Of a stretch of 64,000 nt of DNA, positions 1,408-59,288 are shown in pieces. The notes beneath the pieces are model-generated. The model had not been told where the DNA came from. It saw only the letters and a list, made by a program, of their open reading frames with translations, and did not search any database. The DNA is taken from contig CAJNOJ010000326.1 in NCBI GenBank assembly GCA_905250025.1, positions 2,081 to 66,080 on the forward strand, read 5' to 3'. The position numbers and the translations under genes were made by a program. How positions within the stretch are numbered: the stretch's first letter is position 1; each line of letters begins with the position of its first letter. The DNA is from Adineta ricciae. Its lineage: Eukaryota; Rotifera; Eurotatoria; Adinetida; Adinetidae.

Positions 1408-1429
1408 TTGGCGACGAGGTTATTACTTN

Positions 1430-1862
1430 CAGGTTTCTGTTGTCGTTGTTTCAACTGTTCGAATTTCTTGGGGGTAATGGTGGTCGAGAAATATCGATCT
1501 CGAAATGCCGATTCGAAATCGGACCATTTCTTGAATTTTGTTTCGTTGTTATCGAACCATATTCCGGCTGATTGTGTTAACTTTCCTCGAACAATTTCGA
1601 GTAATTCAAGGTTGGTGGATTCTGCCGTAGCTTTCGTTATGTTTTTTATGCTTTTTAGAAACCGTTCGGCATCCTCTGATGGATGTCCGGCAAAGCTGGT
1701 TAAATCCTCGAAGCGAGCTTTTCGCGCTTGTGTTAAAATTGTGGAGTCAGTCATTGGACCGAGTGAAAGTTGAAATGTGAATGTTGATGGTGTGTAGGTC
1801 GTGCGTTGTGACTTCCGACGGGGTTTTTTCAGTAAATTGTTAGTTATAAGACTGTGTGGCAC
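1430..1862 (-). pseudogene. retroelement gag, N-terminal part
   Basis: The frame starts most plausibly at the Met at 1754 (MTDSTILTQARKARFEDL). It encodes the Gag matrix/capsid-like core with LTQSAGIWFDNNETKFKKW and FESAFRDRYFSTTITPKKFEQL, the same block found at 1012-1100. It is cut at the N at 1429. The two copies of the shared block are about 85% identical by eye, so they come from different element copies or alleles. Confidence 0.75.
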
Positions 1863-2228
1863 TAATCTCTTCGTGTGTTTTTTAACGATCGATCGAGTTC
1901 CGAGTGCCGTGTTTGCGGTTGTGATGAGTTATAAATGTATTATGTGTTAATAAATGCAATGTATGTAAGAATTCGATATCGTTAGATAATCTCTTCTTTG
2001 TTATCTTACGTATGAATCGAGTCTCTCTTGAAGGCTCTGTGTGTTTTCGATTAATTAAAATTTGTGTTAGAATTTGCAATGGGTGGAGTCTCTGTTAATA
2101 CTGTGAGGCTCCGGTATAAAATATCAATTTAATTAATGTAATATCAGACGATAATTTTATTGTTTGTTCGACGCGAAAACAAAAGTACATATATCGGCGG
2201 CGTGTCTTTTGTTTTCTTTGTTTTTTGT

Positions 2229-2240
2229 CCAGGGTCGCCA
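2229..2240 (-). other. primer-binding site of the LTR element
   Basis: Directly inside the LTR, after a two-base spacer, the minus strand reads TGGCGACCCTGG. The TGG start is what is expected for pairing with a tRNA 3' CCA end. The tRNA used was not identified. Confidence 0.55.
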
Positions 2241-2242
2241 AT

Positions 2243-2406
2243 TGTTAGAGAGAAAGACGGGAGATGGTAGTGTGGACGATCTTCGTCCGAGTTTATTCTC
2301 TAACTACTGTTTAATACAGAAAACGGTGTACATATACACGAACGAGGACCAAGGCGAGAAAGAATCTGATGAAGAGAGAGCAGGACGACGTGATGTCGCC
2401 CTAACA
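2243..2406 (-). repeat. 5' LTR (164 bp)
   Basis: The segment is bounded by the perfect 6-bp inverted ends TGTTAG and CTAACA. In minus orientation it contains an AATAAA (in GAGAATAAACTCGG) and a TGTATATGTACA TATA-like region. The primer-binding site lies directly inside it. The partner LTR is outside the window, so a target-site duplication could not be checked. Confidence 0.75.
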
Positions 2407-3713
2407 GTGTCATTTGATCAATCTTTTAAGGTATATCCAATAGAATCTCAAAATTAAATAATTAGTTTTACGAGAATTCTATTTCACAAACGTCACTTGT
2501 TTTTGAAGATCGAGAAATGGAACCCTTTCAAGTACTAAAAAGACAAGTTCGCAGCAAAAATTGAGTTCTGTACTTTCACAGGTCAAATAATAAGACTCGT
2601 TATCGTTCATTTTTATATGAATATTCCAGGAGAACGAACCAATTGCGAACAGTTATTCGCTTAGCTGTTCGTTTATCTCCTTATTTAGTACCATTTTTAT
2701 TACAGAGGAGATTTTATAGGAGGGCTGGATCGCGAAAAAATCTTGATTACCTACCAGATTTACCAATTTCACCACGGATTGCTCATACAATTTTATTTAC
2801 AATTTAATAGATCAACAGATATTTCTGATCCAATTTCCTTTAGTTGTATTAGTTTGATCGACAAAATCTAATCAGATGTAATACGGCATTTTCGCGTATT
2901 GTAACATTTCATTAATTTTTATCGGGCGAACTTTTTTCATTCATTCAAGTTGGTATGTTTTTTTCAATGATTAATGATTCATTCAGAAAGAAAAGAAGAA
3001 ACACTAGAGACGTAAATGATATTGCGAAAGTGAAGAACAAGAAGACGACAAAAATAGAAAAAGCCTAGTGAGCAGTTAAATTATTCCAAAACAGTCGTTG
3101 TAGTTACAAAAATCTGATGCTCCTCATTTTGAAACAGAAAAAGAAGAAGAAGAGAATAAATGATCGACGCATGTTTTCTTGTTGGCGTCATACGAGAGAC
3201 AAAAGGAACGTAGAAGAAAGAAAAATATATAACTGAAACGTAGTTTTACAAATTTTTTAAAGAGTATAAGTTACTTCATACGATAGTTTTTAATGTGACA
3301 GACACTTTATGTACCTCTTTAAATACACTTGTTGAGCATTTGTAGTAATACAGTAGATAAAAAATTACAGATTTACTTTGACTTTTCTATAGGCAATAAA
3401 ACTCGGACGAAAAAGAATAGTATTAACTGAGAGTTTTGTTCCTTTAATTCACCGAATACTTTCCTGATGGTGTGCGTATTTTTTATCAATCGTCCTATAT
3501 CGATGCTTCTCCAAGCTTAGTTTTCGTCAGTATTTTTCCAGATAAAATATTATAGAGTTGAAATGTTTAAATCTAATTGTTCTTAAATTTAGTCAGAGTT
3601 AAAATAATGGTTTTATACTGAAGACGAAACCGAACTTTAAATAGTAATTTTATATACATTTCTGCAGTTTTTTTTCTATATTCTATTGTTCATTACAAAC
3701 GACGAATTACTTT
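2407..3713. other. intergenic region, possible isolated exon
   Basis: No recognisable gene. After a polypyrimidine/AG acceptor-like TTTCACAG at about 2573-2580 there is an open plus-strand stretch of about 75 codons to a TAA near 2806. It is basic and has no recognised domain; a phase-compatible upstream exon was not found, so it is left as a possibility only. The rest, up to the ATG at 3714, is AT-rich with no clear motif. Confidence 0.4.
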
Positions 3714-6206: not shown

Positions 6207-8651
6207 ATTTATGGTTTTTAGAAAATGGTATGAACATTCTCTCTCTTTATATTTTCTCTTCTTTCGTCTGTATCTCTCTTCTTCATTGTTCACATCCGTG
6301 TTACCATCTTCTCTTTGTTTCACATTGTATTTTATGCCAATGATTATTTTTCAATAATTCATATATTCATTCATCATTTCTGCTTGATCTTATTCAAAAG
6401 ACGCTCACCAAAGTTATGAGAAATTGGATTTTGTGGCAAGTTTAACTCATGGTCAACTGTTGCCTAAAAACAATGTCTAAAAAGAAAAATATTCAACGAG
6501 CTCACACTATCAGAATGTTAACGATTGTATCAACTTATATGAATGACATGGTGCTAGATATTCTCACAGGATATCAGTGGTACTGGCATTGTTAATTATT
6601 CTGACTGAGCTTCCGTTGATGTTCTATGTTCTATATGAGCAGATACTGATGATCATTCTTTTATTTAAATCAGAGGAATTTTCGATCAACTGTGTCTCAT
6701 TGATCACATTTCAATTATTTTTTTATTGTTACACTATTACAATGAGTGAAGTCACACATTTTCTAGATCGAGAATGCTGAAGATACTTTGAAAGGTGCGA
6801 GAGGTCACCCTTCCTGTGCTCATATATACACGCTCACTGACATCCTTAAAATACGTCTTCAGTGAAAGACACACCATCTCTTCCATCATTAAAGGCATCG
6901 CTAGATCTGCGGGATATGTATTATATTGCTGAGACGGCAACAAATAATTGATAAAATAGTCGAATATTTACGTTATTTAAGCAAAAGTTCTTCTGAAAAT
7001 CAACTTGAAAGTTTCGATCATTTGAGTTTTTTCCAAACTTTGTGTTAGAACGTTCAGCCGGCGAAATACTAATCGACTGGCAACATAGGTATCTCTTTGA
7101 TAGTTATTCATAAGACTTGATTATCGGTTCGTTGACATAGCTTTGCTCTCTACTATTCTGATATAATATTTGTAATGTTCAAAACATCGTAGGGGTATGT
7201 TGTTAAATAGCAGTTGTCTTTCTTAAACTTCTTTCCGTCTGCATTGTGAATCTTAATGATTCTTACGAGACTGTTTTTCATAGTACAGTTGATCTTCGAC
7301 ATAAGTGTTTTATGATAACTAACCAACTAATAAGTGGAAATACACGCACTTGCCATTTCATCTTCGCGATTTGCTGAAAGTGTGATGATGATTTTCTTTA
7401 TGATCATATAAATATTTCTTTCTCAGTGCAGGGTAGATTTCTATTTCACTAAAAATTTCGCGTTTTCATTTCCGTCGTTTGTCTAAGCTGACAAATATTT
7501 AAGAAAAGAAAGAAAAAGATCCAAAGAAACCTAAAATTTGAGACTACTCTTAAGAACGAAAACGTTTCGTGTCTCAAATATGAAAACAAACACTTCTTTT
7601 GGAAACAATTTCTCAAGTGATATTTTTCATTTTCTTCCTCTTCTCATCGGTAAAACGATTTATTTCATGAGTTTATTTTCAAACAATTATCGTTCATAAA
7701 GTTTCAGGACACAGAACTGATCCATTGGTGATCATTGATGATGATGTGTACTGTCTTTCATCAATGAAAACTCGTTCCGGTGGTCTCGATGTTATCAAAA
7801 ACTCTTCGGAAAGAGTTTTACACAAATGTTTCATGAAAGTCATATCAACACCAGAGTTTTTATGAGTCAGCAAGTTAAGCTTTTGGTGTGGCATCGAGGC
7901 CATATCCAAATAAGTAAAATAAGTAGGGATATGCAGCTCCTACAAAGAAGATGCTTTCTCACAATGGGTTTGAAAGTGTTTGGGTTTTTCATATCAAGAC
8001 ATTTACTTAAGTTGATTTAAAGTCAAAAGGAATAGAAAATAAAGTTATAGATCGTTTCCTTATTTGATTAGTATTCATCATAAAATAAGTGAAAACCTTA
8101 TTATAAAATTTATAAGTAAGCAAACCGAAAGGAGTTTTCACCGAGAGCAGACGCGTTGGCACCATGCGTGTCTGCTTCGTCCAAATGTTCGAGCTAACAC
8201 ACTAAATTTCGACAAAGAACAATTAAAAACCTGAGTTTAATCTGACTGTGGGTGTGACTATCGATCTGGATATCCATACAAATCTTGTATAAGAACATTT
8301 ATACTCATACTCTATCTCAGAACGACAGTTAGAAAGATGAAAAGAAAAACTTACATCAACTAGTCATTTCATGACGTCGATACATATATTACTTGTGAAT
8401 TATTAAGACAGATGGGCTAGACTTGATTTTAATTTCAGAACCTTTTTTCTTCCTTTTACATGAATATTTTGATATGTGCTGTTGGTAGAAGTACGTCATT
8501 TAGCGTCGAAGAAAATAGCACATCTGCTTAGAAGCACTAACTTCTGCTAGAACAGAACAAACTATATTAATCATAACAAAAGCCTAACAGACTATCAACA
8601 TCTAATATTTGATTCATTTGTTTTTGAAATTGTATTCTGTATGAAAGCAAA
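6207..8651. other. intergenic region
   Basis: About 2.4 kb without a gene I can support. Short open frames occur but none has a recognisable domain or good splice context. A near-perfect hairpin lies at about 8142-8170 (GCAGACGCG pairing with CGTGTCTGC). The 3' end of the preceding gene and the promoter of the receptor gene at 8652 should lie here. Confidence 0.5.
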
Positions 8652-11600
8652 ATGTCTCAAGTGAAATATTTCCTCGGTTTAATTTTCATTCATTTGACTA
8701 CAGCTTCACTACAAATGAATCTTCATTTTACAACAAATAAAGTAAGTGAAAATGAATATAACGATGGCATAGGTGCACGATATAATTGTTTCCAACTTGC
8801 TTCCAATATGCAATATGCGAGTCTTACTCGACAAATCTCATCTTATTGTATGAGCGAATCATCTTTCCAATTTCATATTGAAATCGATTCCTCATTGCGA
8901 ACATTTTCTTTCCCTGATCTTGAGAAAATGAATATCACTTGTGAAGATCTTTATTTATGGTCAACACCCATCGATACTATTGAGCAATATAAAATCTATT
9001 TAGAAACAAAAGATTTCTCTTTATCGACATGGATATTTTATAATTGTACACTACCAAGATTCGGACCAATGTGTCAATATGAATTATATAACTACCGCGA
9101 GGATCATTCCTCCCTAAGTGAACTGATCTATGATTATTACGATGAACGTGGTGATCTCATAATGAATTTGACTTGTTATACACATATCAAGTGCAACCGT
9201 GGTTATTCAGCTGCATGTTTAGATTGGACTGAAATTTGTGATGGAAAAATTGATTGTCTGGATGGAAACGCTGATGAAGAACATTGTTGGCAACTTGAAT
9301 TTCATGACTGTGGACCAAATGAATATATGTGCGACATTGGACAGTGTATACCTTATGAATTCGTTGGGGATGATCAAAAAGTGTATGATTGTGTTGACAG
9401 ATCGGACGAGAAGGCATTGGATCATGAAGACTTTCCCGTAGACTATCATTTTGAACCGGCTTTTGGATACGATGATATCAGATGTGATAAAACATTCTTG
9501 TCCAAATCTTGTATCATCTTTCGTGACTATCTCATCGCTGAATCCATGTTTTCAGTCAAAGATCCAACCGTCTCAGACGAATGTTGGTCGGCTTTTAAAT
9601 GCTACCTTGGCTTTCCGAATCCAGAAAATCTGGATGAATTGAATGATATCGATAGCGAATGTATGCCTCAAATAATCAAGACCTGTCCGGATACACTCTA
9701 TGTCCCAAGTGTTCCAACATTTTTCGGACATATTTATACAGCTTACAAAAAGAACGATACACCCAATGACAGTAATTATATTTTACCCTATCTATGTTCA
9801 CACAGATCCTTTCATTTTGGATCACTTAGTTTAGTTTTGGATGGATCAATCGATAATATGACATGTTTTAAAATTACTCAGTTCGAAGACAAATCGTCGA
9901 ATTACATGCCTGTCTTTTTATTTCGTTATTTGATACCCATAGGTGACATATACAGACAACTAACACAAATCGAACCCATCATTAATTTTCCCTTGAATCG
10001 GTGTAATGATTCGCATGTATATCAATGTCAAAATTCATCGAAATGCATTTCGTTTCGTCGTTTAATTGATAGTGTACATGATTGTCCTTATAAAGACGAT
10101 GAAAATATATTTCACCATACGAATCCTCAATTATTCGAAAAAATTAAACATAAATATTACGATTGTTATTCTACTAAAAAATCAATTCCTCAAGCAGCAA
10201 TTCACAACGAAGAATGTGATTGTGGATTTAGCGAACACGGCTTTTGTGAAGATGAAGAAGAATTCTTAAACTTTACGCGAAGAAGCATATTCTTTCAAAT
10301 GATGTGTGATCGTTTTCAAGAAATTCATCCAATAATGATCGATGGCAAAAATATGACAGATGAAACAGAATGTGAACAATGGGAGTGTAATAACATCTAT
10401 ACCCGATGCGATGGAATAATGAATTGTTTACATGGAGAAGATGAAATCGGTTGTGATTTATCATCATTATTTAATTGTTCGTCGAATGAACAAATCTGCG
10501 TCAATAAAGATACCTCGAAGTTTTCTTGTTTATCCAATAGTAAAATGAACGATGGCATAGTCGATTGTCTTGGCGGGACTGATGAATCGAGTATTTGCTC
10601 ATCCGTGAGTAGTGAGGGTGGTTTTTATTGTATGAATAATGACAGTTCAATATGTTTGAATGTTATCCGCTTATGTAATAATCATAGAGATTGTCAAGAT
10701 GGAGATGATGAACAATTTTGTGTTGGAAATTATGGAAGTTACTCGTTTATATACATTTGTGACTACGACTATTCAAAATTCACTTCAAAGATCGAAAAAT
10801 TCTTGTGTAGTACGTCAAAATTTCGTAGAAAAACAACATTTAAACAATTTACAATTGAAGGATTTCATCAATCAACTGAAAACGAAGTTTATAAAAGAAT
10901 CAATACAAAAAGTCACACACGAATCACTTTACCAAATGATCGTCGTTGTCACCGTGGTCTTGATATACGTGTTTGGCTAAATAGATCATCTAATCACTAT
11001 ACGAGTACATGTCTGTGTCCCCCAAGTTACTATGGTGACCAATGTCAATATCAAAATCAACGTGTCAGTTTAGCCATTCGATTTCATGCTTTAACACAGT
11101 CAAGACAAATTCAATTTGCCATGTTGGTTATGCTTATCGATGATACAAATGAACGCATGGTTCATTCCTATGAACAATTTACCTATTTATCCATTCGGGA
11201 TTGTAAAATTAAATTTAATCTGTATTTACTCTATTCAACTCGGCCCAAACAATCAAATCGAACATATTCAGTCCAAATTGATATTTATCAAAAACTTTCT
11301 TTAGCGTATCGAGGAAGTTTTCTCTTTCCAGTCAAATTCTCATTTTTACCTGTTCATCGTTTAGCCTTTAGTATTCGAATTCCTTCAGATAACTATGATG
11401 ATCAACAACAGCAATATGTCAGTTGTTCAAAGAAATGTCTTCATGGAAAGTGTTTGATCTATCTGAATATTAAAGAAACATTTTGTCAATGTGAACAAGG
11501 CTGGTCGGGTCAATATTGTCACATTCCATCTCATTGTACTTGTTCGACATCGAATTCATTATGTATTGGTGTATCAAGTCATAATCGATCAATATGTATC

Positions 11601-12164
11601 TGTCGAGAAAATTATTTCGGTCGTCAATGTTATCTTCGAAATCCAATTTGTGATACTTCACCGTGTGTAAACAATGGATTATGTATTCCGTACGATGATT
11701 TCATGGTATCGTCAACGAAACAAAAATATTTTTGTGTCTGTCCAAAAGGTTTCGGTGGAAATCGGTGTGAAGTGATTGGTACACAACTAAATTTTATCTT
11801 TGAGAAAAATATTCGTTTATCTCATTCGATTTTTATTCATTTCTTCAACATTCTTCTATATATGGATTCTACCAAAGTTCCGGAACTCTCACCTGTGAGA
11901 TCCACAGCTTTACAAACGGTATCACAAATAACTAATTCAGTTCGAATCTATTGGTCAAAACCATTTCATCTCACTTTCATCGAAACATTGGATAAGACTT
12001 ATTATTTAACTGTTCTTCAACCGATCTATAATCATTCAATGACAATAATTCGAAGAATTAATTCATCGCATCGTTGTCCATCAATCGGGGAATTAGTGAA
12101 TGAAACATTTGCTCGACTTCACGTTCTTCGTCGAATGAAATTGTATCATTTGATTTGTCAGCAG
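8652..12164 (+). CDS. LDLa/EGF-repeat receptor, copy 1 (3' truncated at N)
   Basis: Starts with a signal peptide (MSQVKYFLGLIFIHLTTAS). The ectodomain has at least five LDL-receptor class A modules with the calcium-box pattern (for example CDGKIDCLDGNADEEHC, CDGIMNCLHGEDEIGC, CNNHRDCQDGDDEQFC). Then come EGF-like modules (CLCPPSYYGDQC, CQCEQGWSGQYC, CICRENYFGRQC, CVCPKGFGGNRC) and a region leading toward a membrane domain. The frame is open for about 1170 codons and is then cut by the N at 12165, before the 7TM part that copy 2 retains. It probably encodes an adhesion-type rhodopsin-like GPCR with LDLa ectodomain, as in snail GRL101-like receptors. The ligand is unknown. Confidence 0.8.
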
Positions 12165-12165
12165 N

Positions 12166-15100
12166 AGACATGGATATTTCATAATTGTACACTACCAAGA
12201 TTCGGACCAATGTGTCAATATGAATTATATAACTACCGCGAGGATCATTCCTCCCTAAGTGAACTGATTTATGATTATTACGATGAACGTGGTGATCTCA
12301 TAATGAATTTGACTTGTTATACACATATCAAATGCAATCGTGGTTATTCACCTGCATGCTTAGATTGGACTGAAATTTGTGATGGAAAAATTGATTGTCT
12401 GGATGGAAACGCTGATGAACAACATTGTTGGCAGCTTGAATTTAATGAATGTCAACCGAATGAATATATGTGTGACATTGGACAGTGTATACCTTATGAA
12501 TTTGTTGGAGATGATCAAAAAGTGTATGATTGTGTTGACAGATCAGACGAGAAAGCATTGGATCACGATGACTTTCCTGTAGACTATCATTTTGAACCGG
12601 CTTTTGGATACGATGATATCAGATGTGATAAAACCTTCTTGTCCAAATCTTGTATGATCTTTCGTGATTATCTCGTCGCTGAATCCATGTTTTCAGTCAA
12701 AGATCCATCCGTCTCAGACGAATGTTGGTCGGCTTTTAAATGTTACCTTGGCTTTCCAAATCCAGAAAATCCTAATGAATTGAATGATATCGATAGTGAA
12801 TGTATGCCTCAAATAATCAAGACCTGTCCGAATACACTCTTTGTCCCAAGTGTTCCAACATTTTTCGGACATATTATATTTTACCCTATCTATGTTCAGA
12901 CAGATCCTTTCATTTTGGATCACTTAGTTTAGTTTTGGATGGATTAATCAATAATATGACATGTTTTAAAATTACTCAATTCGAAGACAAATCGTCGAAT
13001 TATATGTCTGTCTTTTTATTTCGTTATATGATACCCATAGGTGGCATATACAGACAATTAACACAAACCGAACCCATCATTAATTTTCCCTTGAATCGGT
13101 GTAATGATTCGCATGTGTATCAATGTCAGAATTCACCAAAATGCATTTCATTTCATCGTTTAATTGATAGTGTACATAATTGTCCTTACAAAGACGATGA
13201 AAATATATTTCACTATACGAATCCTCAATTATTCGAAAAAATTAAACATAAATATTACGATTGTTATTCTACTAAAAAATCAATTCCTCAAGCAGCAATT
13301 CATAACGAAGAATGTGATTGCGGATTTAGCGAACACGGTTTTTGTGAAGATGAAGAAGAATTCTTAAACTTTACGCGAAGAAACATATTCTTTCAAATGA
13401 TGTGTGATCGTTTTCAAGAACTTCATCCAATAATGATCGATGGCAAAAATATGACAGATGAAACAGAATGTGAACAATGGGAGTGTAATAACATCTATAC
13501 CCGATGCGATGGAATAATAAATTGTTTACATGGAGAAGATGAAATCGGCTGTGATTCATCATCGTTATTTAATTGTTCGTCGAATGAACTAATCTGCGTC
13601 ACTAAAAATACCTCGAAGTTTTCTTGCTTATCCAATAGTAAAATGAACGATGGCATAGTCGATTGTCTCGGCGGGACGGATGAATCAAGTATTTGCTCAT
13701 CCGTGAATGGTGAGGGTGGTTTTTATTGTATGAATAATGACAATTCAATATGTTTGAATGTTTTCCATTTATGTAATAATCATAGAGATTGTCAAGATGG
13801 AGATGACGAACAATTTTGTGTTGGAAATTATGAAATTCACTCGTTTATGTACATTTGTAACTATCACTACTCAGAGCTCGCTTCAAATATCGAAAAATTC
13901 TTGTGTAGCTCGTCAAAATTTCGTGAAAAAACAAAATTTAAACAATTTACAACTGAAGGATTTCATCAGTCAACTGAAAACGAAGTGTTTAAAAGAATCA
14001 ATACAAAAAGTCACACACGAATTACTTTACCAAATGATCGTCGTTGTCACCGTGGTCTTGATGTACGTGTTTGGCTAAACAAATCATCTAATCACTTTAC
14101 AAGTACATGTTTTTGTCCGCCCAGTTACTATGGAGACGAATGTCAATATCAAAATCAACGTGTCAGTTTAGCCATTCGATTTCATGCTTTAACACAATCA
14201 AGACAAATTCAATTTGCGATCTTGGTTATGCTTATTGATGATACAAACGAACGAATGGTTCATTCCTATGAACAATTTACCTATTTATCCATTCGGGATT
14301 GTAAAATTAAATTTAATCTGTATTTGCTCTATTCAACTCGGCCCAAACAATCAAACCGAACATATTCAGTCCATATTGATATTTATCAGAAACTTTCTCT
14401 AGCTTATCGAGGAAGTTTTCTCTCTCCAGTCAAATTCTCATTTTTGCCCGTTCACCGTTTAGCCTTTAGTATTCGAATTCCTTCAGATGACTATGATGAT
14501 CAACAACAACATGTCAGTTGTTCAAAGAAATGTGTACATGGAAAATGTTTGATCTATCTGAATATCAAAGAAACTTTTTGTCAATGTGAACAAGGCTGGT
14601 CTGGTCAATATTGTCATATTCCATCTCATTGTACTTGTTCGACATCGAATTCCTTATGTATTGGTGTATCAAGTCATAATCGATCGATATGTATCTGTCG
14701 AGAAAATTATTTCGGTCATCAATGTTATCTTCGAAATCCAATTTGTGATACTTCACCGTGTGTAAACAATGGTTTATGTATTTCATACGATGATTTCATG
14801 GTATCATCAACGGAACAAAAATATTTTTGTGCATGTTCAAAAGGCTTCAGTGGAAGTCGATGCGAAGTGATTGATACACAACTGAATTTCATCTTTGAGA
14901 AAAATATTCGTTTATCTCATTCGATTTTCATTCATTTCTTCAATATTCTTTTATATACGGATTCTATCAAAGTTCCGAAACTCTCACCTGTAAGATCCAC
15001 AGCTTTACAAGCGGTATCACAAATAACTAATTCGATTCAAATCTATTGGTCAAAACCATTTCACCTCATTTTCATCGAAACATTGGATAAAACTTATTAT

Positions 15101-16498: not shown

Positions 16499-16538
16499 CG
16501 AATCTTTGTCTTTTGTAAATATGAATTTACTTTGTTCA

Positions 16539-18835: not shown

Positions 18836-18839
18836 NCAT

Positions 18840-28555: not shown

Positions 28556-28556
28556 N

Positions 28557-45440: not shown

Positions 45441-45936
45441 GACAGCTATCTCTCAGTTTAACGCCATTGTGGAAACCAGTCTTAAAGAAAGTCTTCAATC
45501 CAAGGCTTATTAACCCGAATTCACATTGGTCAATTTCAGCCAATCAGCTATGACCGTAATTTTTTTTCAAAAGCTTATTCTCGCTAGAAATTCTTCCCGA
45601 GCGCATTATTGTCTTCAGTCTTTGTATCACAATGTTATACTTTCGTAAAACTCAATTGTAGACTGTGAAATTCTACTTCAAGGAACTGTACCTCTTCAAC
45701 TTGATTGTTGGTTACTGATCCGGAGAGCCTTTAAGGTTAAAAGACGCTATTTGCAAAACGGATTCTATTTGCTATTCAGAGATCTCAGTTGGTTGCTGAT
45801 TTGATTATAGATGTTCAATGTTTTCCTCGGATTGTGTAATCTCATCTGTGGATCTTTGAGTTCTTGTCAATGGGTGCTTAGCTGTTGAGCCAGAATAGAT
45901 TTACAACTGTCCCTGAAGTAATAGAGAAGCTTTCTT

Positions 45937-46024
45937 ATACGTTAATAACTTGATTAAATGGAAATTAACGGTTAGCAGGTTTCCGTTTACGTTAGTTTCA
46001 AATTAACGCAAATATCCACCCCTA
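45937..46024 (-). mobile_element. end of a hAT-like non-autonomous element
   Basis: On the minus strand the segment begins TAGGGGTGGATATTTGCG, close to the (C/T)AGGGGTG ends common in hAT elements, and continues with repeated TTAACG-type words similar to those in the foldback element. The other end was not found. Confidence 0.3.
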
Positions 46025-46311
46025 ATTACTAGTGGTATTACCCCTGGTTATTACAGGTGTTTCCATTGTTGGACCCAGATCGATCGGGGAAACGCGAATT
46101 TCGGCGTACTGACTTTCGCCATGGACTTTCACAACCATTTATTTTCCTTAAAAATAGTTTCTACACTCCTTAACACGTTTAGCGCGCACACACGGCACCA
46201 GGTGTGGGTGAGGGCTCTGTCTAAATTGAGTAAATACCTTTTTCACCAATGTTTTAACCGTACGGCGAAATTCATGCTACCCAATCATTCGATCATTTTA
46301 TTAGATTATTT

Positions 46312-47214: not shown

Positions 47215-47611
47215 CATTTAGATGAGGATCTCTATGCTTCCATATATAAAATTAATAATGGATAAATTTTTATCCACACTATGAAAGTGATTATTAGCAA
47301 AATGTACCGATTCATTTTCTTTTGGTTTAAGAAATTTCAAATTTTAAAACGAAAATAAAAGTTGGAAAAAACGCATCATCTCTCTTCCTACCTTTTCTTT
47401 GTACATAAAGTGTTCTCTTCATGATGTTAATCAAACAAAGAAGCAGTACTCAATTCTCGAGTAAACATTTTATTTGATGCAATAACTTTTATAAGGAAGA
47501 AAATGGTTGTTGGAAAATTCGTTTTTATTCTCACTATATATAAATCGGATAGTCAATGTATATTTTAATATGTAACATTGCAGTCAATTCGCTATCATTC
47601 CCAGTGAAAAG
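47215..47611. other. intergenic region with promoter of the small membrane protein
   Basis: AT-rich. It includes an AATAAA-like 3' end of the preceding gene near 47354 and the TATA box at 47537. Confidence 0.4.
47537..47544 (+). promoter_or_regulatory. TATA box
   Basis: TATATAAA lies about 70 bases before the ATG at 47612, leaving room for a short 5' UTR. Confidence 0.45.
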
Positions 47612-48320
47612 ATGCAGGTGAGTATTTTAATAATTATGAAAAATTTCTAAAATATGAAAACATTCTTCTTATAAAAATGATAAATTGATGAAAATTCAAC
47701 TTAAAATTGAATGTAGTGACTGAGAAATCGAAAGTATACTTCATTAGTACTTGACACAATTCGTCAATGATTCACAGATCAATTTAACTAAGATGTATCT
47801 TTCTTTAGATTTCAACAATAACAGAACTTGTAAACGAATCAAAAACAACGGGTAAGATCAAATAGTAACGGCTGTTCATCTTATCAATTTGAATGAACAA
47901 AAATATTCTTATGAGTTCGTTTTCGAAAGATAAATTAAACAAGCATATGAATACTTACACAATTTGAAAATCTGTACTAGTTTATGGATTAAAATTCTAT
48001 ATTCGTATCGGTGTTTTTGATAGTTTTGATTTGACTTAGGATTTGCAAAACTTCTTTTAGATCCAGTGAAAATTGTTGTGCCAGGCGGTTCATCGACGCC
48101 AACTCAACAAAGATTAGCTTACCTTCGAGGCGGTGGCAGTAATTCTAGTGTTTGCCTCCTTCTTATCTTCACTATTATCTTTCTTTTTATTGGTATTTCT
48201 TGCGTTTCCGCTGGCGGTGGTACTAAAAATATTCCAGCTGCAGGTGTTGGTGGTGCTTTTATTGCTCTTGGTGCTGTTTGCTGCCTTTGTTGTTTTTGTG
48301 CTTCTTGTAATAAATCATAA
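47612..48320 (+). CDS. small two-TM Gly/Cys-rich membrane protein (three exons)
   Basis: Exon 1 is only ATG CAG (47612-47617), exon 2 is 47809-47851 (ISTITELVNESKTT), exon 3 is 48061-48320. Splice sites are GTGAGT/TTTAG and GTAAGA/TTTTAG, all in phase, giving 102 residues. The product has two hydrophobic segments (VCLLLIFTIIFLFIGISCV and GVGGAFIALGAVCC) separated by a Gly-rich loop and ends CCLCCFCASCNKS, a Cys cluster likely to be palmitoylated. No family recognised. Confidence 0.65.
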
Positions 48321-51103
48321 TAAATAATGGCTTTTTAAACACAAAAAAAAATTATAATACAATATGAATAAAAGTCGTAAAACTCTTCATTATCTTACAC
48401 AATCATCAAGATCCAATAGATATTGTCATTATATCGAATTCCTCTTTTGTTTTTATTTAAAAGCTTTTTATGAATAGCACACAACAAAAGATTGATCGAT
48501 TGAAATATTCTAAGGATTAAATTTATCAACAGATACCAGCAGTGTGCAGATTTCCAAAAAAAAAGAAATTTCCCAAAATTCTATATCATACAATTCACTA
48601 TGAATGATAGATACGAGAGAAAGGTAGGGTCGATAAGAAAAAGTAAATCAAGAAATTTCGAGGTAATTTCAGTAATTTGGGGAAATTCTGTTTCATATGT
48701 TTAATCACGGGTAATAAATAAAAAAGAAGGATACGGCCGACAAGAGAAGGAAAATTAGGACACTTCGAGGTATTTTCGATAATTTCAGTGATTCGAGGGG
48801 TGAGGGTGAGTGACAAGTTCCTGGATCCATACCCGTATCCACCCACACCCTCATCCATCCTCACCCTCACCCTCAAGATTAAGTCTTTACGTCCGACTGT
48901 CCCTTGTAGAGGACATCACATTAATTGCTATATAGTGATAGGATAGCGTCTTATTCACAAAAACTACTGTTTTTAAAATGAAGACAGCCTAGATGAAAGT
49001 AAGATGGAGAGAAGAGCCTACTAAGATCACCATTGAACATGTAAATATTGCTCACAAAATTTCTAATTTTTTTAAGCACAATGCGTTCCCAATATGTCAC
49101 TATTTTTCTGCGTATTCAATAAGAGTTTTGAATGGTATCATTAGAAATAGGCTTAAGCTATAGTGTGAAACAACTTTATATATTTTAAACTTATCTAAAA
49201 AGATATTCTGGTTCTGTTAAAAAAGTGTTATTCTTTCACATTTTTTGGCATAGTAACAGCGGTTATTTTGACCTTTCCCTTTCGAAAATAATTGAAAATA
49301 CTTTAAAAAAATCGCCAGAGTAGATTTATAGTGAGCTTGAGCCACATCATCGAGCCACCCAAGTGAAAAACTATAATAATTATACTTCACCCACTTCATC
49401 CGCGTGGGAAATTTTTTTATCCTACCTGGTAGTTCTGAACATGGTGTTAGCTTATAAAGGATCCATAATCACTGCTAGTATGACTACTTCCTTCCTGCAT
49501 TCAGACAAACCCTGTCCGCCGTTAAGGCATTGGAGAATCATGACAATGATTTAGACTTTACCATGAATTCCCCTGAATTTAAACAAATTAATTATGATTA
49601 TATTAGAATTATATTAAAGAAAATCTCGTTCTTTCTCAAGATAATGAAGAAATATTTTGATTCGTGTGAATTCGAGATTCCACAATACTTCTCCATTCTT
49701 GAACCTTGTTATTCTATACTATTCCAGGAAATAATCTTACGAATTTCAATGTAAGACAGTTTTATATATGATATCTTCAAGATTATTGTTAATAAAACCT
49801 ATAAATATTTTCTAACTTTCTCGATATGATCGGATGAGATCTACCGAGGAGAAAACGAAATGATTATAAGTTTATTTTCTATTTTTCGTTCGATCTGACT
49901 AAAATTATTTGGTTATTTGTCAACAAATACATTATTCCAACTAATATTACTATTCAAGAACTATTTTGTTGAGAGGAAAATGAACAGCAATTCAATGTAA
50001 TTTATTGTCTAAACAATACGTTAATGTGCAAGAAACAGTTCTTTGATTTCCACATTCACAACGATTACATTTATCCATAAATGTTTCATCAATACTATAA
50101 ATTTTACTACCGTATTGACGCTTGATAATTAGAATTTTGTATAGCATTACTTTTTGTTGTTATTCATAAACAAAAGAAAATAAACAAAATGTAGATTTGA
50201 TAATTTTTCATCTTTCAACCTTTAAATTTCCATAGAAAGAAAAGGAAACGAAAAGATATTTATAGAGTACATAAGAGAAAAATTGCAATTGTCTATGATT
50301 GAGTGGAATACACAATCGAAATAAAAGTCAATTATACAGACAATAACGAAGGAATTTCGAGGCATAGCAAACAATATGATTGGTTAATTCAACATGATGC
50401 AAGTTTTTTCATTCATACTTAAAATTGATATAGTTACAGAATTTTTACTTTAAAAAAATAATTTCTCAAATCTTTTTTTAGAATATCTTTTTTGTTTGTT
50501 ATTCAAGAATATTTTTCCAAAAAAATAATGCAAATAGTGTATGCACTATCATGTGATTGTTAAATCTTTGATAGTACAAAAAAATTAATTTTGTTAAGAG
50601 CTGTCATTTTCAGCAAATGAATAACTCTAACAGTACTAATCATATCAAGAGTACTCGATAAACACTCATGCTGGAAAATGTAATGAGAACGCACGAGTAC
50701 TCATAAACTCTTTTTTTATCCATAAAAAGTATTACTTCTTAATTTTGAACTTAGAAAGTAGCACAACTGATAAGTTTATGAACGAAAATTGATGTTGAGG
50801 ATAAATTAGAACGATATTCACATTTATTCCAGAGATATACTGAATCACATGAAAAATCTTTCAGTAGTAACAAATATTTGTTTTACTCAACTGAATAGTC
50901 AAAAGTCTTACATTAGTAACAGGATATTTGGAAAAATACATATGACTTCATCAATTGTACTACTTTCTAAGTTTAAAATTGAAAATTTCATTAGGAAACA
51001 TTCCCATTGATTTCAATTCCAGATTTACATCAAGACAGAAGATTATTGTCTTGACTTTTATATTGTTTTAAAGATTTTCATTTAATTAATGTAGGAATAT
51101 CAT
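48321..51103. other. gene-poor AT-rich region
   Basis: Contains inverted GAGGGT tracts (48797-48876). Around 49480-49754 there is a plus-strand frame of about 75 codons (DFTMNSPEFKQINYDYIRII...) that might be a transposase remnant but has no diagnostic motif. Nothing else is supported. Confidence 0.4.
48797..48876. repeat. inverted GAGGGT/ACCCTC tracts
   Basis: GAGGGGTGAGGGTGAGTG is followed about 40 bases later by CTCACCCTCACCCTCAAG, so the two tracts face each other and could form a hairpin. The same hexamer appears at other places in the window. Confidence 0.6.
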
Positions 51104-52069
51104 ATGGCAAACAGTACATCTACTAACGAAACACTCTTTACACATGGACCGTTTGTAGAAAATATTATTCTTGATTCTATTACAATTAGTTTTTGTATAT
51201 TAGCCATTGGAAAAACATTTTTATTGATTCTTTTCATTTTAATTCGTCATCAATTGAGAAAATCAAAAGAGAAAATTCCTTGTCTTCTTAGTTTAAATTT
51301 ATATATGGGTATATTTATATTTATTCTTTTTATTCTTGATATGTTCATATCAATGCTCAAAGGTCATCTATATCCAAATACATTACAACTTACAGATAAG
51401 ATACAATGGTGTCATATAAAAGCATATCTTATCAATGTTGCTATGACCTATTCACTTTATTCAAACACACTTCATAGCTTATATCGTTTTGTTCGTATCG
51501 TTTATTATACACGTTGTTCTCTCTATCAAAATATTTATTTATATATTTTTGGTATAATTATTCAACTAATTTTAAGTCTAATTCAACCAATACCACTTCT
51601 TTTCACAGGTATCTATGGTTATGAAGATTATCATTGTCAAATACTTTTAACAGAATGGATTGGAGTAATGATAGCAACTGTTCTCATTTGGATTCCACCA
51701 CTTTCCATTACAATAACGATTTATATTTATACAGTATATTATTTACGAAAAAATTCTTCAACATTTACTTTTCGGCAACAAACAAGATTTACGCGTGATG
51801 TTACAGTCATAAAACGTATTGTATGGTCAATTATATTTGTAATTTCATGTACTATTCCTGCATTTAGTGTAACAATTATGTTTTATTTATTTGCTTATGC
51901 TGGATGGTGGAGAAATCATTTGGCATGGTTAGGTTTTATTTTATCGTTTACTGGTATGAGTTTTGTTCATACATGGTTTTCTCCTCATCTTCATCTTTTC
52001 CCCTTACGAAGATCAAATCGAATTAATCATCAGCAGACGACAAGAATCGTTGTTATAAACTTAAGATAG
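51104..52069 (+). CDS. rhodopsin-like 7TM receptor 3
   Basis: 321 residues, single exon. An N-terminal segment with N-glycosylation sites (MANSTSTNETLF) precedes seven hydrophobic helices. TM3 ends in LYRFVRIVYY in place of DRY; TM6 is IVWSIIFVISCTIPAFS and TM7 is FTGMSFVHTWFSPHLHLF, in which NPxxY is not evident. Orphan receptor. The 3' part from 51681 is repeated at 59289-59677. Confidence 0.75.
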   Translation: MANSTSTNETLFTHGPFVENIILDSITISFCILAIGKTFLLILFILIRHQLRKSKEKIPCLLSLNLYMGIFIFILFILDMFISMLKGHLYPNTLQLTDKIQWCHIKAYLINVAMTYSLYSNTLHSLYRFVRIVYYTRCSLYQNIYLYIFGIIIQLILSLIQPIPLLFTGIYGYEDYHCQILLTEWIGVMIATVLIWIPPLSITITIYIYTVYYLRKNSSTFTFRQQTRFTRDVTVIKRIVWSIIFVISCTIPAFSVTIMFYLFAYAGWWRNHLAWLGFILSFTGMSFVHTWFSPHLHLFPLRRSNRINHQQTTRIVVINLR

Positions 52070-53159
52070 ATGATGTCGAACATTTGAAAATTTTTCTTTC
52101 TTATTTATTGTTCACAAATCAACCTATATATTTATATTTTAGAATAAAAACCAATTGTCTCTTATGTTCATTAACTGATATATAATACATTTGTATAACT
52201 ATCATGAGGGTGAGCGGATGGGGGTGTGGATGAGTCAAAGCACGTCATCATCGCGATTTTAATCCCGCTAAAGAAATCATTAGATAGTTTTAAACTGCAT
52301 GGGCTATTCAAATGATCCGAAGATCATAGATAAAGCTGCATAATCTACGTAGTTCGACAAATAGTCGATCTAAAGACAGCGTGGTGTACGGTTTATGTGG
52401 TGGTGAATGATACGATATATAGTATTTTAGCGTTTCTTGTATATTGCATTTGGACGCTAGGAAGTAATAAGGTGAATGATCAGTAACATCGGATTATAGC
52501 GACACCGGATGGAATACTATAGATTGCGCGTTCAGTTGTGTAGAGGGGGATTGATTTGTCATACGGTTTATGTTTATTTCCTTGAATGTGATTATACTCA
52601 CTTGTGTCGAACTTGAAAGTTGATTTTAAGTGCTTAGTTGCATGCTCAAAAGTTGAAGGATTCTATTATTTCAAGTAGTGAAATACTGTAGCATTCATTT
52701 CACATCGCTAGTTTGGTGCTAACCTCTTCTAAACCATCGCGCACCCTCGCTGTCGAAAAGTATTTGACTTTGCATATCATTGACAATTTGGTGACATTCC
52801 TGGTTGTAAAGAATTTCGATGGATACATAACCGAAGTGAGCACACAGTTAGTAAATGATCACAAAATCAACGCAGACTAATGTTATCAGTTTCTTCGTTT
52901 TTTCATCTGACAAACTGTAAATGAAGCCAGGCGCGCTTTCATATTTTCTCTGTCATCGTAAAGATTGTCTGCTCATTGGTCATTTTCAAAATTTACGAAG
53001 TATCCTGACCAGGTGAAGGAGTAAGAGTGTGAATTTTGCCGAACGAACCTAGTGCAATAAAAAAAATGGAATATGTTTTGTTAGAGCTTGGTTTGAATCT
53101 AATCTATAAACGATAGTGGTTCGATAGTTTATTCGAGAAAAAAAGAAAAAGAAGTCTAT
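52070..53159. other. flank between receptor 3 and the Penelope-like element, copy C
   Basis: Begins with a GAGGGT-containing stretch (52205-52234). A reading frame seen in copy D (60251-60517) is interrupted here by a TAG and a deletion, so it is not a conserved gene. Confidence 0.45.
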
Positions 53160-55560
53160 GACAGACAAATTATCTAAAAGCTCTACTTCGCAGTTTTTCT
53201 CGTTCTGTTCTCGTTGTCGATTATTTGGTTGGCGTCATAAAAGTCGTTTTGTCAACTTGAGATTGTTTTTGGTTCCTATGATCAGACACCTGTTGATTCC
53301 ATAGCTGATGAACATTCCTTTTGTAAGTAGACAGTCGATTTTCATACGATTAATAGATAATAACGCTTGAATCCCATTTCGATGGACCTGTTTTCTGAAA
53401 TTGAACCGCGGATTCACTCATAAATTCTTCGATGGTGCCACATGACGCTTTGAAGATATTTGATTGTATGGCAATTCCTTGAATAGTTGTTTTATTCAAT
53501 AATTCATGGCACCTCTCGATGAAGTCTTTTTCACTATGATAAGCGTCTACTACATTTCGATCCATTCTATTTTGATTGGCGAATCTATTGAATTGTGCAT
53601 AAATAAATCGAGGCGGATAGCTAAGATTGCGAATATAAAGATAGTCTGTCTCGAACTGTAGTAGACGAACTTACCCGTTATACAATAACATCAACTTGAC
53701 GAACTGTTGCTCGTCGTCAAATACTGCTAATGTTGAGGAGTATTGAACCGCTCGCCAGAGAGCAGTATTGATGATATTTCCAAATACGTGTTTGGAATGA
53801 TTAGATGTAAACTGTACCACATACAGTTCAGCTGCTTTTATGATGAACTGATGTTGTTGAGGTGCCATCCTTGTTTTTGATAAGAACAACCAAAAACGAC
53901 ACATCGCATCCAATGTTGCGCGCCAGTTTAATGTTTGGGTGAAAATTATTAACCGTTCTACCATTTCATGAAGTTTTTCTAATGACTCATTCGAGGTGAA
54001 AAAGACGTCATCAATATATCTGATGTAAAGAAAAGTGAGACGGACAAGGAGATAATGTGGTGTTCCAATAGAAAGGTAAAGTTTTACGGTCATAGATTTC
54101 GTTTGAAGATGCTTGTCGTTGGGAAAATTCCTTTTCCCATTTGCACATGAATATATTCGCCAATGTTGAAGTGAATGCAGATTCGATTGCTCCGCGGACG
54201 ACTTGTCGATAGAATTTCTTCTCATAGGTGAACACATTTTCTGTGATGAAAAGACGAGCTAATTTCCGAATAGCATCAATTGGTACGCCTTTCAATTTTC
54301 GGTACCCATGTAGCATGAGAAATTCGGTTAGAATTTTCAGAGACTCTTCTTGAGGTCACATAGTGTATAAATCTTTGATATCGAATGTGCACAAATGAGT
54401 TGTTGGTTGTGGATAGTCATTTGTCGTGTACGTTTCGAGACGACGAATGAGATCAACACCGTCGATAATTGAAGTTGAACGAACATGTTTATCAAATAAC
54501 AGTCGAAGTAATCGATCAAGAAATTTGGAAATGCCAGCTGTTGGCGTATTCATTGATGGTACAATCGGGCGCAGTGGAGTTTCTTCCTACAAATACGAAT
54601 AAAACGGTAGGTGGTAGTCAGCAGAAGATGTTCACAAATTACCTTATGTAGTTTTGAAACGAAACATAAATAAGCGAGTTCAATTTTGTCGAAGACTGGC
54701 CGTAGTGGATTAGTCTCTAATTAAACCTAAGCTTCCACTTTTTGCCGATAAGCGTCTACTTTTCGCTCTTAAGCTTTGGTATCGCCGAAATGAAATATGC
54801 CGGCTTTGTCTGTCACACGAAGAATCTAATTGTATTCTCGTTCAGCTTGTTTTCCTTGATATGTACGTGAATACAGACACGTTTGATTTGGTCGCATATA
54901 GCTAGGACCTTCAAAAATGGAAAAGACAAAAACCAAAAACAATGTGGATAAGAAAAAACTGGTATATCTCATACTTACCGTTGTGTGACAGATAGTCAAA
55001 TTTCTTTGAAACGTAGGAAGAGATGAGTTGGTGTTCTCAATCTGTTGCTGGACACTGGACAACTCGTGTTGATATAAGTATTCTTGATGTTCAATCTTGT
55101 TTTCATACCCTTGTAGTTCAACATTTAGCATAAATCTCTTAAGTTCTTGTAGCATCTTCAAACGCCTGTTGCTCAGTTGTTTTATATCGAGGTTAGATAT
55201 GATGATATGAGATTCGTTGTTCAAACAGCATAATTTCTTCCAACACCTTCATCTGTTTCTGTCGAATGATTGTTAATCGGTCGATCAACTCGAGCTAGAG
55301 AAAAATATAAAAGAAACGATGAACGTTAACGGCTAGATAATACTAACTTGGCCGACATCCGAAAAATAATAATACAATTCTTCGCCGATCTGTTTTTCAT
55401 GAATGTCATCTTTGAACTGGTGTATTCGATAATGAATTGCTCTGATAAAGTTAAAATAATGTAAACGAACGAATTCTTTCAGTCTTCCATCGATGATGTC
55501 CAACAGAGATAATGTTGATGGACAGGTCAAAAATTGTTTCGTCAACACATACACCGACAA
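53160..55560 (-). mobile_element. Penelope-like retroelement, endonuclease not seen, decayed (copy C)
   Basis: Minus-strand order: N-terminal helical part (55333-55560, 54826-55224, with KQLSNRRLKMLQELKRFML), GPSYMRPNQT block, RT region (LRLLFDKHVRSTSI, LCTFDIKDLYTM as motif A, RKLARLFITENVFTYEKKFYRQVVRGAIESAF, YIRYIDDVFFTSNES with the YxDD catalytic box) and thumb (VQFTSNHSKHVFGNIINTAL). Frames are broken several times. A GT-AG intron of 53 nt (55295-55347) joins two N-terminal segments in phase. No GIY-YIG domain was seen, which fits the Athena-type elements of bdelloids that live near telomeres. Confidence 0.8.
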
Positions 55561-56810
55561 CCGTCATTTCTACGTTTCTCGAACCACTACTTCGACCATT
55601 GTTTGATAGGCACGTTCGTTCAACAACAATTATTAACAATGTTGATCTTATTCGCCGTCTCAGAGCATTTACTGCTAACGGCTATTTCAAACCAACAACT
55701 TTATTCCACTTGATGCCATTCGGAAATTAGCTCGTCTGGTTTTGACAGAAAAATATGTTTACATATGATAAGAAATTCTATCGACAAGTAGTCGGTGGTG
55801 CGATAGGATTAGATTTTACTCTAACTTCAGCCAATATCTTTATATGAAAATGGGAAAAACCGTTTGTCCTTTAGCAAACAAGTTCAAATGAAATCTATGG
55901 CCAGCACGTTTACCCTTTTAATTTAAGTGCTATACTGGCAACTTATCTATATGATTGCTCTTTACTACAGATACATGGATGACATCATCTGTACGTCGAA
56001 CGAATCTTTCGCTAAAATCAATCGAATGTTAGATGAAGTCAATTTATTTCATCCCAATATCAAATTAGTCCGTCAAATTGGCTCAAGCGCATCCTTTCTC
56101 CATGCTCAGATCGAAAATAGAAATCGCATATTGCCAACATCAGATCATCACAAAGAAGCAGTTGAACCTTATGTGATACCATTTACATCTGATCATCCAA
56201 AGCATGTGTTCATGAGTATCATCAATACGGTACTTATACGAGCTATTCGATATTCTTCAACATTATCAACATTTCAAAGTGAACGACGCTCCATCAAATT
56301 AATGTTGTTGTATAACGGATTAGATAAACGTACCGAGTTCGCGATCTAATCATTCTCTTATTCACAATTGTAGGTATCTACCTCGATTCATTCAACACAT
56401 TCTTTGCTGACAATTGAGCAAATCAAAATGTGACCAATACCATATACAATGATGATGATTTTAGCAACAAACGCTGAGAACTATTACATAGACTATCTAT
56501 CCCAGAAATGATTGTCCAATCAAGAATATCAAGAGCAGTATACAGTAATAATGAAAATCCTACAAATAATCAAATGGATCAATCAAATAATAACTATCTA
56601 TCTAAATGGTATACTAATATCATTTTCCATTACACTTATGAAAATCGATTAGCGGACTGCAAAAAAGACATCCATCAACTTTGAGACCAACACTTTCAGC
56701 AAACTCCAGTGATCAACACACGCCTGATAACAGGCACCAAGGACAATCCGAATTTGATCGAACAACCTGTAGGACAACAATCACGTCTTCAACAGCGAAA
56801 CTAAATAATA
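55512..56810 (+). mobile_element. Penelope-like retroelement fragment, opposite orientation (copy C)
   Basis: Starts inside the RT (STFLEPLLRPLFDRHVRSTTI), continues with LDAIRKLARLVLTE in a shifted frame, then YRYMDDIICTSNES (catalytic YxDD) and the thumb (PFTSDHPKHVFMSIINTVL) to about 56810. It joins the 5' end of the minus-strand element head to head. The block with motif A (TFDIxDLYT) is missing between PTTL and DAIRKLAR, so it cannot encode an active enzyme. Confidence 0.8.
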
Positions 56811-57689
56811 GATAATGCAATCAAACATTTCCTATATAAATCCTTGTATATATATATACATATTCGTTTCTTCTATGCACCTTCCATTCATCTTATTATA
56901 CTGCTAGGTGACAAATACTAAGAATCGTTAAGGCTAGACCGTACCGCCGCCGAAATAATTCCGCTGTCTCAATCATTTCATTTCAGATTAACCATCTACA
57001 CCACAAACACTTCATTCGAATGTAAAACAACAAGTCCGATAAAACGAAGGCAATCTTTACAATTTTTTTCATTTTCAAATAATCTCGTATCTCCTTCAGA
57101 TATTCATGAAAAACAAAACAAAGAAGACGTTCAGAATAAACTAAATAATATTTTCTTTCATAAAATGGAACAAAATCTACTTATTTTTTCAGCGCTTAAC
57201 TTCATAAAGAAGGAAAGAAAAGACAGAATTAGAAAATCACCGACACATGCTCTACTTCAATCTTTCTTTACAAGTCCCAACCAAACCTAAAAATACAGAA
57301 AACGAATAGAGATCAGAATACTTATTTATAATATTTTATCATGGGACAAACCACGATACCTAAACATCAACAACACAACGCAAACGCTAACAAACGCAGC
57401 ACAACCGCACAAAAGACTCACCGCAATCCAAAAACAACAAAAAACATTAGTCCAACCATTGCATATATCAAGCAATTCAACACCTTCTAAAACACTGCAT
57501 AGGTTATGGTCTTCAACTCCATTTTCTTCAAAAGCAACCATACAGATTTTTCCAAACAGGGTAACAAAATCCTATCAACCATTTCCATCAAGAGTATTAT
57601 TTTACCTATCTCCAAAACACAGTCAGTTACAGCCCTTCACATGCTTACATGGTGGAAAACCAACTGAGGATATCCCTCAGCAAGGTTGA

Positions 57690-57711
57690 CACACCCTCAC
57701 CCTCACCCTCA
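57690..57711. repeat. ACCCTC hexamer tract
   Basis: ACACCCTCACCCTCACCCTC, three perfect units in a row; the reverse complement is the GAGGGT motif seen elsewhere in the window. Confidence 0.6.
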
Positions 57712-58488
57712 AGATGGAAATTGGTGTCCAATGTGTTTCATAAACTTTCACATGAGCCATATCTTCACCCTTTTGCAATTATACATGCATGACACATAAA
57801 AAGAAATATTCCTTTTAGATCTCTTATACGTGTAATAAGATATTGTTCGAATTATGATGCATTTATACAAAAAACAAACTCATAATTGTGTATCATTACT
57901 ACTGAGTAAATATCCTTCATATTTTATTTTAAGACATTTCAATGTTCAACTCCTACATCCATAAATTTCTTGAATATAAGAAAGATTTTTCTGAATAATG
58001 TATGAAGGAAAACAACAAAGAAGGCTGGAATTAATTTCAAAAACACTTTCTTATGCCATTTTACATTTTGCAAGGATTTGAAGGACATTTCGACCCAGTT
58101 CAATGAAATCTGGAAAAATTGTCCTTCAAACGCAGCTATTTGTAACATAAGATCCATCGTAGGTACTAAGAAGTTACATGATCTTCAAGATTATTTAGTT
58201 AAAAAGAAGCCAGACCGTTCACTATTAATGATTACGGATTAGTATTCTTAATTTAAACTAATATCTTCAGTTTTGTGGTTCATGGAAATGAGCCCAAATG
58301 CATTCAAAGATACTCACCAAACAAACGAGTATCACACATCAACAACAACAACAGCGAGATCAAGACAAACGCCAGGCAATTTTAACAAGATCCCACGCTT
58401 CGTCTAGCCCGGGATCATTATCATATATGCGCTTGCATCGTTGTTAACTTATTATTTATTTATTAGTTTTTTTTAATTTTGTATTTTT

Positions 58489-58519
58489 CTGATGAAGTCA
58501 GATAATTATCTGACAGAAT
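58489..58519 (+). ncRNA. hammerhead-ribozyme-like core
   Basis: CTGATGA is followed by a perfect 7-bp stem GTCAGAT/ATCTGAC with loop AATT and then GAAT, where the hammerhead has GAAA. The core boxes are in the right order. The flanking stems I and III were not established. Such motifs are carried by Penelope-like elements. Confidence 0.4.
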
Positions 58520-59047
58520 CCGGCCAATAAACTACAGAAAACCAAAAAGCAATACCTTCTCTGCCTTACCATCTACTTCTCATCTTATCATTAAAATGAA
58601 TTAACCGAATAGTTAATTTTTATTCTTTTGAGCGAGTATCTTCTTTCTTCTTTTTTATTTCGAAAGGTAGCGACGATTTCTGATGATGGTATAGAGCCGT
58701 ATATGAATATATATGGTATATAAGCTTTATTTGATAAAAGAAATCGCAGCGATACTGTATTTTCCTTGTTTGTATATAGTACTTGGAGAAATACACTCAC
58801 GCACTAACACAAAAATATCTGAAAACAAAACTAATGTATATAATCTAAGTGTCACGCGTTAGGATCATGGATCACATCAAAAACACAAGATGAGTTTCTG
58901 TCAAACATGATAAGGGTACTTTAGTGCGATAAGGGATGTCAAAAACATTATCTGTAAGTTGACACAATCTAAATGACTAGAGAATAACATGGTGTTTGGA
59001 TAATGGAACTATCCAGGGATTATACCACTGAAGAGTCCGAAATATGC

Positions 59048-59276
59048 TCATTTATAAATCAATATAAATAAATCGATTTATAAATCATAAATTTTTTCGT
59101 GCGAAATTTAAGGCAGTTATAAACATTTTGTGTATTTATAAATTCACTGGTGATTTATAAATTCTCATTGGTTTATAAATTCTTCAGGATTTATAAATCT
59201 CTTTGTAGTTTATAAATCTGTTTGATTTATAAATATATTCGTGACTTACGAATAAATCCATGATTTATAAATGCAG
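59048..59276. repeat. array of TTTATAAAT palindromes
   Basis: At least eight copies of a TTTATAAAT-type word recur at about 22-24 bp intervals with variable spacers (CACTGGTGA, CTCATTGG, CTTCAGGA, CTCTTTGTAG). It looks like a degenerate minisatellite and ends just before the N at 59288. Confidence 0.7.
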
Positions 59277-59288
59277 ATTTGACTTGTN

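Follow-up and report, generated by a model that had tools for sequence, protein, structure and literature searches.

An assembled stretch of DNA in which several genes seem to stand twice raises the question of whether the genome or the assembly made the copies. The window analysed here (64,000 nt with 34.7% GC, bases 2081-66080 of contig C326, which has 100,177 nt) raises this question for seven-transmembrane (7TM) receptor genes, an LDL-receptor-A/7TM gene and others, which appear in tandem along a sequence broken by single Ns. These apparent tandem copies are almost certainly haplotypic false duplications made by assembly, an artefact and not biology. An earlier note on this DNA had suspected chained assembly paths, and this suspicion is supported by 121-nt cores at the junctions, by sums of 100 added bases and by two parallel arms, termed A and B1. 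The genome searched comprised 130.46 Mb in 1,033 contigs, and junctions were surveyed in 18 stretches (304 kb) with 26 single-N junctions on C326, C402, C350, C144, C278, C545 and C199. This sample was non-random, as C402 and most other stretches were chosen for matching window genes, while C350:1-40000 was picked for its contig number, irrespective of what it contains. The stretches of C144, C545 and C199 measured 10 kb and that of C278 20 kb, and a partner farther away is invisible there. Junction positions on C402 and C350 are counted within the examined stretches, and positions beyond base 64000 are given in extended coordinates, i.e., window numbering carried on along C326. The pieces between Ns are also referred to as contigs and are listed in Table 1.

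The position of mismatches is decisive in the overlaps at the junctions, which had been described as exactly 221 or 321 nt long. The overlap lengths were found to be exact, and both 321-nt pairs (16650-16970 and 18515-18835; 21712-22032 and 31718-32038) are identical at 321/321 positions, but the 221-nt pairs are imperfect copies. The segments 20691-20911 and 20913-21133 share 220 of 221 positions, with a lone mismatch at position 153. The segments 21812-22032 and 22034-22254 share 212 of 221; positions 1-121 are identical and all 9 mismatches (122, 123, 163, 168, 170, 187, 198, 213 and 220) lie beyond 121. Contig 1430-12164 ends in 221 nt that match the contig start C402:67803 at 218/221 positions (mismatches at 134, 140 and 172), and an inverted pair at 83945 differs at positions 13, 49 and 99 of 220, which are 208, 172 and 122 when counted from the start of the right contig. 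Since the mismatches of all three imperfect direct overlaps and of the inverted pair fall outside a 121-nt core, the shared piece is 121 nt long and the remainder is added sequence. The two lengths are not independent: 221 is the node of 121 plus 100, and 321 is 121 plus 100 plus 100, added at two ends. That 221 and 321 are k-mer sizes in themselves was ruled out by mismatches that begin at exactly position 122. A search for exact maximal repeats of at least 100 nt across 296 kb found 7 of exactly 121 nt, and in each of these 7 pairs one member starts directly behind an N; 5 different contig starts are involved. The inverted node itself (83503-83623 and 83946-84066) lies where a contig begins; candidate explanations are an amplification chimaera, an inverted repeat and a contig placed in the wrong orientation.

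When the bases added at each junction are counted with the node set at 121, the left and right additions sum to 100 at all 7 junctions that are readable on both sides. The split is 100 + 0 at 20912, 22033, C402:4559, C350:25572 and C350:29967 and 29 + 71 at C350:26772; at C402:3402, where the 221-nt overlap is exact, only the total of 100 is readable. Nine further junctions are readable on one side only, with values of 0, 78 or 100. Among these, 12165, 24747, 31717 and C350:15880 show 100, the two ends of contig 16650-18835 (16649 and 18836) show 200 jointly, taken as 100 each, C545:6609 shows 78, and 83945 and 96566 show 0. Sums of 100 with one N remaining would be explained by a fixed placeholder of 100 Ns that was filled from its flanks by reads.

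The window contains exactly 10 N bases, every one single, at 1429, 12165, 16649, 18836, 20912, 22033, 24747, 28556, 31717 and 59288, just as the earlier note had listed them. Its further statement that each N lies at the end of a repeated or truncated segment is borne out by 9 of the 10, which have a repeat edge at most 2 nt away, N 1429 being the exception. With repeats defined as at least 200 nt at 85% identity or more, and with the edge at base 64000 left out, 15 of the 39 edges of ten window repeats lie within 3 nt of an N, compared to a mean of 0.045 and a maximum of 5 when ten Ns were placed at random 20,000 times, a coincidence far beyond chance. Across the whole survey, a repeat edge was found within 3 nt of 17 of the 26 single-N junctions (11/14 on C326, 2/2 on C402 and 4/4 on C350), and C278:5548 was a near miss at which the alignment overran the N by about 10 nt. 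The neighbourhood of N 1429 showed only an 87-nt similarity of 85% amid broken gag-type retroelement pieces; this N is a retroelement break, and no long duplicate was seen there. Broken gag/protease retroelement fragments extend over 1-1928 on the minus strand and flank this N.

The bases at the joins also reveal which contigs belong next to each other. The node 21812-21932 of contig X starts B1 (22034-24746) and also, 100 nt in, A (31718-59287). The 100 nt preceding the node in A are X's own sequence, for which no other genome location was found among the best 40 of 46 candidates, and the last 221 nt of B1 continue exactly as the interior of A does (34311-34531). With the end sequence of X before both A and B1, and with B1 running back into A, a real tandem order does not fit; a genuine tandem would show its unique left flank on the first copy only. 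A second complete pair that leaves and rejoins a common path was found on C350 (26844-29966 and 29968-33087). No pair of shared nodes was found for B2, B3, C2/C3 and D/E, whose allelic placement is suggested by alignment, order and N positions.

SPAdes contigs overlap by k, RaGOO writes gaps of 100 Ns and a single N can remain after GapCloser. De Bruijn assembly of short reads, at a node overlap of 121 nt, would have produced separate contigs for two diverged haplotypes, representing the arms of a bubble. A scaffolder would then have lined the two arms up one behind the other, separated by a fixed gap of about 100 Ns, and a gap filler would have added a total of 100 bases of read sequence to the two flanking ends, found no join and left one N. 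We infer both the types of program in this scheme and the read origin of the added bases.

A genuine recent tandem duplication of several kb, with contigs breaking at its near-identical edges, would account for collinear copies that share one orientation and are neighbours in the scaffold, and no stops were found in five pairs of open reading frames (ORFs) compared in frame. This explanation is nevertheless highly improbable, since the added bases put X before A and the interior of A after B1, and not B3 before A. Moreover, across the 18 stretches no repeat of at least 200 nt and 85% identity had both copies, and thus a copy-to-copy join, inside one contig, the ends of 16650-18835 being the sole exception, and the same 121/100 arithmetic is found on C402 and C350. 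The earlier note had allowed for alleles or homoeologues placed in a row, and here the evidence favours the former. Synonymous divergence (dS) was 0.166, 0.059, 0.126, 0.086 and 0.037 in the five ORF pairs and 0.171 in a sixth pair (9027-12164 and 12168-15257). The stretches 30000-31000, 9026-12164 (best 40 of 191 candidates) and 22034-28555 (partner in two pieces) each have one long genome partner above 90%, and their other listed matches are at most 86%, contig-end pieces of 219-221 nt aside. Exactly two long versions were thus found for three stretches; for D/E, the search covered the end. Passages of PMC5916493 describe bdelloids as degenerate tetraploids, so that a bdelloid host, if this is one, could be expected to carry homoeologues (ohnologues) that stem from an ancient tetraploid. 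However, the same passages give a mean synonymous divergence (KS) in A. ricciae of 0.14 for homologues and 1.27 for ohnologues, and the range of 0.037-0.171 seen in six pairs here lacks the high synonymous divergence of homoeologues (published KS about 0.6-1.3). Exact 121-nt nodes common to both arms also oppose homoeologues, which are scarcely credible as the source of these copies. Taking into consideration a dS of 0.04-0.17 and one long partner above 90% per searched stretch, alleles fit and homoeologues do not. No second genome copy was found for 3648-6203, and for 46000-51600 none of the best 40 candidates gave a match of more than 200 nt that exceeded 82%; the absence of a long partner for these two stretches fits a mostly collapsed assembly.

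The false duplication could also have arisen as described from versions contributed by different individuals, or by amplification chimaeras in pooled, amplified DNA, instead of by the two haplotypes of a single animal, which is compatible with the assembly explanation. Passages on A. ricciae ARIC003 report DNA from about 200 animals of one line that was whole-genome amplified, which would be relevant if this is the same assembly, and the inverted junction at 83945 would suit a chimaera. This source is very unlikely, as the divergence of 2-9% per 500-nt step in the C2/C3 and B/A pairs exceeds what is expected within a clonal line and as there are two long versions of the searched stretches.

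Several observations weigh against false duplication by assembly or limit its reach. A readable core is lacking at 10 of the 26 junctions (1429, 28556, 59288, 70765, 94965, two on C144, two on C278 and one on C199), none of the 6 junctions on the short stretches of C144, C278, C545 and C199 has a repeat edge within 3 nt, and C417 carries one gap of 3 Ns, which would be an incompletely filled gap. The D/E pair is more diverged than the other pairs (BLAST blocks of 86.5-88.6%), contains retroelement-like sequence and yielded no 121-nt node. With regard to a bdelloid host, a spliced-leader motif of bdelloids had 0 exact matches in the genome searched, from which short contigs may be missing, and Pfam reverse transcriptase was not found in four retroelement-like pieces. 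Telomere-type repeats of TGTGGG gave 38 matches on 10 contigs, and the 44 matches of a backward control are the same repeat in another phase, so that this control is uninformative. The host is perhaps a bdelloid rotifer, possibly A. ricciae, and some proteins and retroelements of the window may look bdelloid-like; the artefact holds whatever the host. For A. ricciae ARIC003, passages of PMC7943196 give 135.6 Mb in 4,302 sequences and 35.5% GC, a final SPAdes k-mer of 121 for the maxhap set, and the use of RaGOO, SSPACE and GapCloser on other samples.

Contig E was compared further with its neighbours D, the right part of contig A, and F. Between 59289-66620 and 51681-59050, identity is 96% over the first 500 nt and then mostly 86-92%, with 47-68% over 64289-65788. 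The last 262 nt of D have 99% copies, one of 262 nt on C969 and one of 213 nt on C384, but no counterpart in E, and most of the first 704 nt of F is nearly unique and not a dispersed repeat. On C24, weak relatives of the end of D and the start of F were found in this order (64 and 77 nt, 84-86%). Judged from these alignments, E probably lies parallel to the join of D and F, and D and F most likely represent one haplotype that was broken at an insertion missing from E.

Table 1. Contigs, contig ends and reading frames in the window
Feature	Coordinates	Strand	Remarks
Contig C2	1430..12164	+	Last 221 nt common with contig start C402:67803; right end extended by 100 nt
Contig C3	12166..16648	+	12167-15258 putative allele (93%) of 9026-12163; 3.1-kb dovetail split by N 12165
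Self-closing contig	16650..18835	+	Both ends the same over 321 nt; unit length 1,865 nt; 200 bases beyond the 121-nt node, taken as 100 per end
Contig 18837-20911, end	20691..20911	+	Node 20691-20811 (121) + 100-nt extension
Contig X	20913..22032	+	Start is unextended node; end is node 21812-21932 + 100-nt extension following contig A
Contig B1	22034..24746	+	Bubble arm, 94% identical to its putative allele 31818-34531; node at start 22034-22154 (= 31818-31938)
B1 end	last 221 nt of 22034..24746	+	Equal to 34311-34531; read as node 24526-24646 + 100-nt extension
Contig B2	24748..28555	+	24763-28555 putative allele of 34803-38595 (95%); second copy of 7TM receptor ORF
Contig B3	28557..31716	+	28677-31716 putative allele of 42833-45870 (95%); duplicates a different 7TM receptor ORF
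Contig A/D	31718..59287	+	Putative other allele of B1-B3, same order; 31718-31817 is 100-nt extension into X; last 262 nt dispersed 99% repeat
Contig E	59289..64000 (to 70764 extended)	+	Aligns to 51681-59025, then contig F (71470-74981)
Chimaeric frame across N 12165	8628..12929	+	LDL-receptor class A domains; built from both alleles
Open frame through Ns 22033 and 20912	20288..22309	-	Carries two false repeats of 74 residues each, in frame; 222 nt (221 plus the N) per repeat

Among the contigs, 16650-18835 is a case of its own. Its ends meet, and it is not an allele but most likely a tandem repeat that was collapsed, so that the copy number of its unit is under-counted. A long terminal repeat (LTR) element, considered because of the identical ends, was dropped, given a paralogue on C417 in rotated order and ends that fit 121 + 200. 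This paralogue occupies 585-2412 of the examined stretch of C417. At C402 near 67802, both contig ends at the N share the last 221 nt of C2 (218/221) and the flanking genes are just 72% alike; the contigs there may have been joined to the wrong family member. In contig A, a 4.2-kb segment (38599-42832) with a PrsW-type protease ORF (39910-40917) and a tRNA match (41279-41350) has no counterpart in B2 or B3 and is either hemizygous or unassembled.

The gene counts of the window are inflated, as the earlier note had warned: about 17.5 of the 64 kb (9.7 + 3.1 + 4.7) represent a second allele. The 7TM receptor ORFs 26045-27019 and 29513-30505 duplicate 36072-37058 and 43669-44661. The copy of the LDL-receptor-A/7TM gene on C3 lacks 43 nt at about 12872 relative to 9732-9774, which shifts its frame and could be either an allelic difference or an assembly error. 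The false repeats in the minus-strand frame are identical at 73/73 and 68/73 residues, and Tandem Repeats Finder (TRF) reports a period of 222. As 221 + 1 = 222 = 3 x 74, any 221-nt overlap plus one N keeps the reading frame. Apparent tandem genes such as the 7TM receptors, the LDL-receptor-A/7TM gene and others are removed from the gene list, and predicted proteins can come to contain false in-frame repeats. The arithmetic of 121 + 100, one N and 222 nt as 74 codons provides a test for which the assembly sequence suffices, and such artefacts could be found without reads by looking for 121-nt nodes next to single Ns. That the signature is genome-wide, with the majority of recent tandem gene pairs and many internal protein repeats of 74 residues being bubble arms and filled gaps, is tentatively given slightly less than an even chance; its odds are lowered by the 6 junctions beyond C326, C402 and C350, of which 0 had a repeat edge. 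If true, claims from this assembly on receptor family sizes, tandem blocks and breaks of collinearity would be inflated. If the host is a bdelloid, this matters for a lineage whose homologous blocks in tandem or palindromic arrangement are debated, in passages of PMC5916493, as marks of asexual evolution.

The artefact is of a known kind, although unusually well signed. The program purge_dups is reportedly named alongside haplotypic false duplication in draft assemblies. Such false duplication, also termed heterotype duplication, resembles the situation described here in that diverged haplotypes are kept separate and cause false gene gains, as set out in passages of PMC9516828. By comparison with these passages, the copies in the window lie in one scaffold, and those joins that are readable show a constant make-up of a 121-nt node, 100 added bases and one N, giving rise to false repeats of 221, 321 and 222 nt. 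A further likeness is found in the scaffold-linked blocks of Adineta vaga and A. ricciae, where, according to passages of PMC5916493, homologous blocks appear as tandem repeats and the breaks at gaps were in part suspected to be scaffolding errors; here, in contrast to those passages, the joins themselves reveal the cause in their bases.

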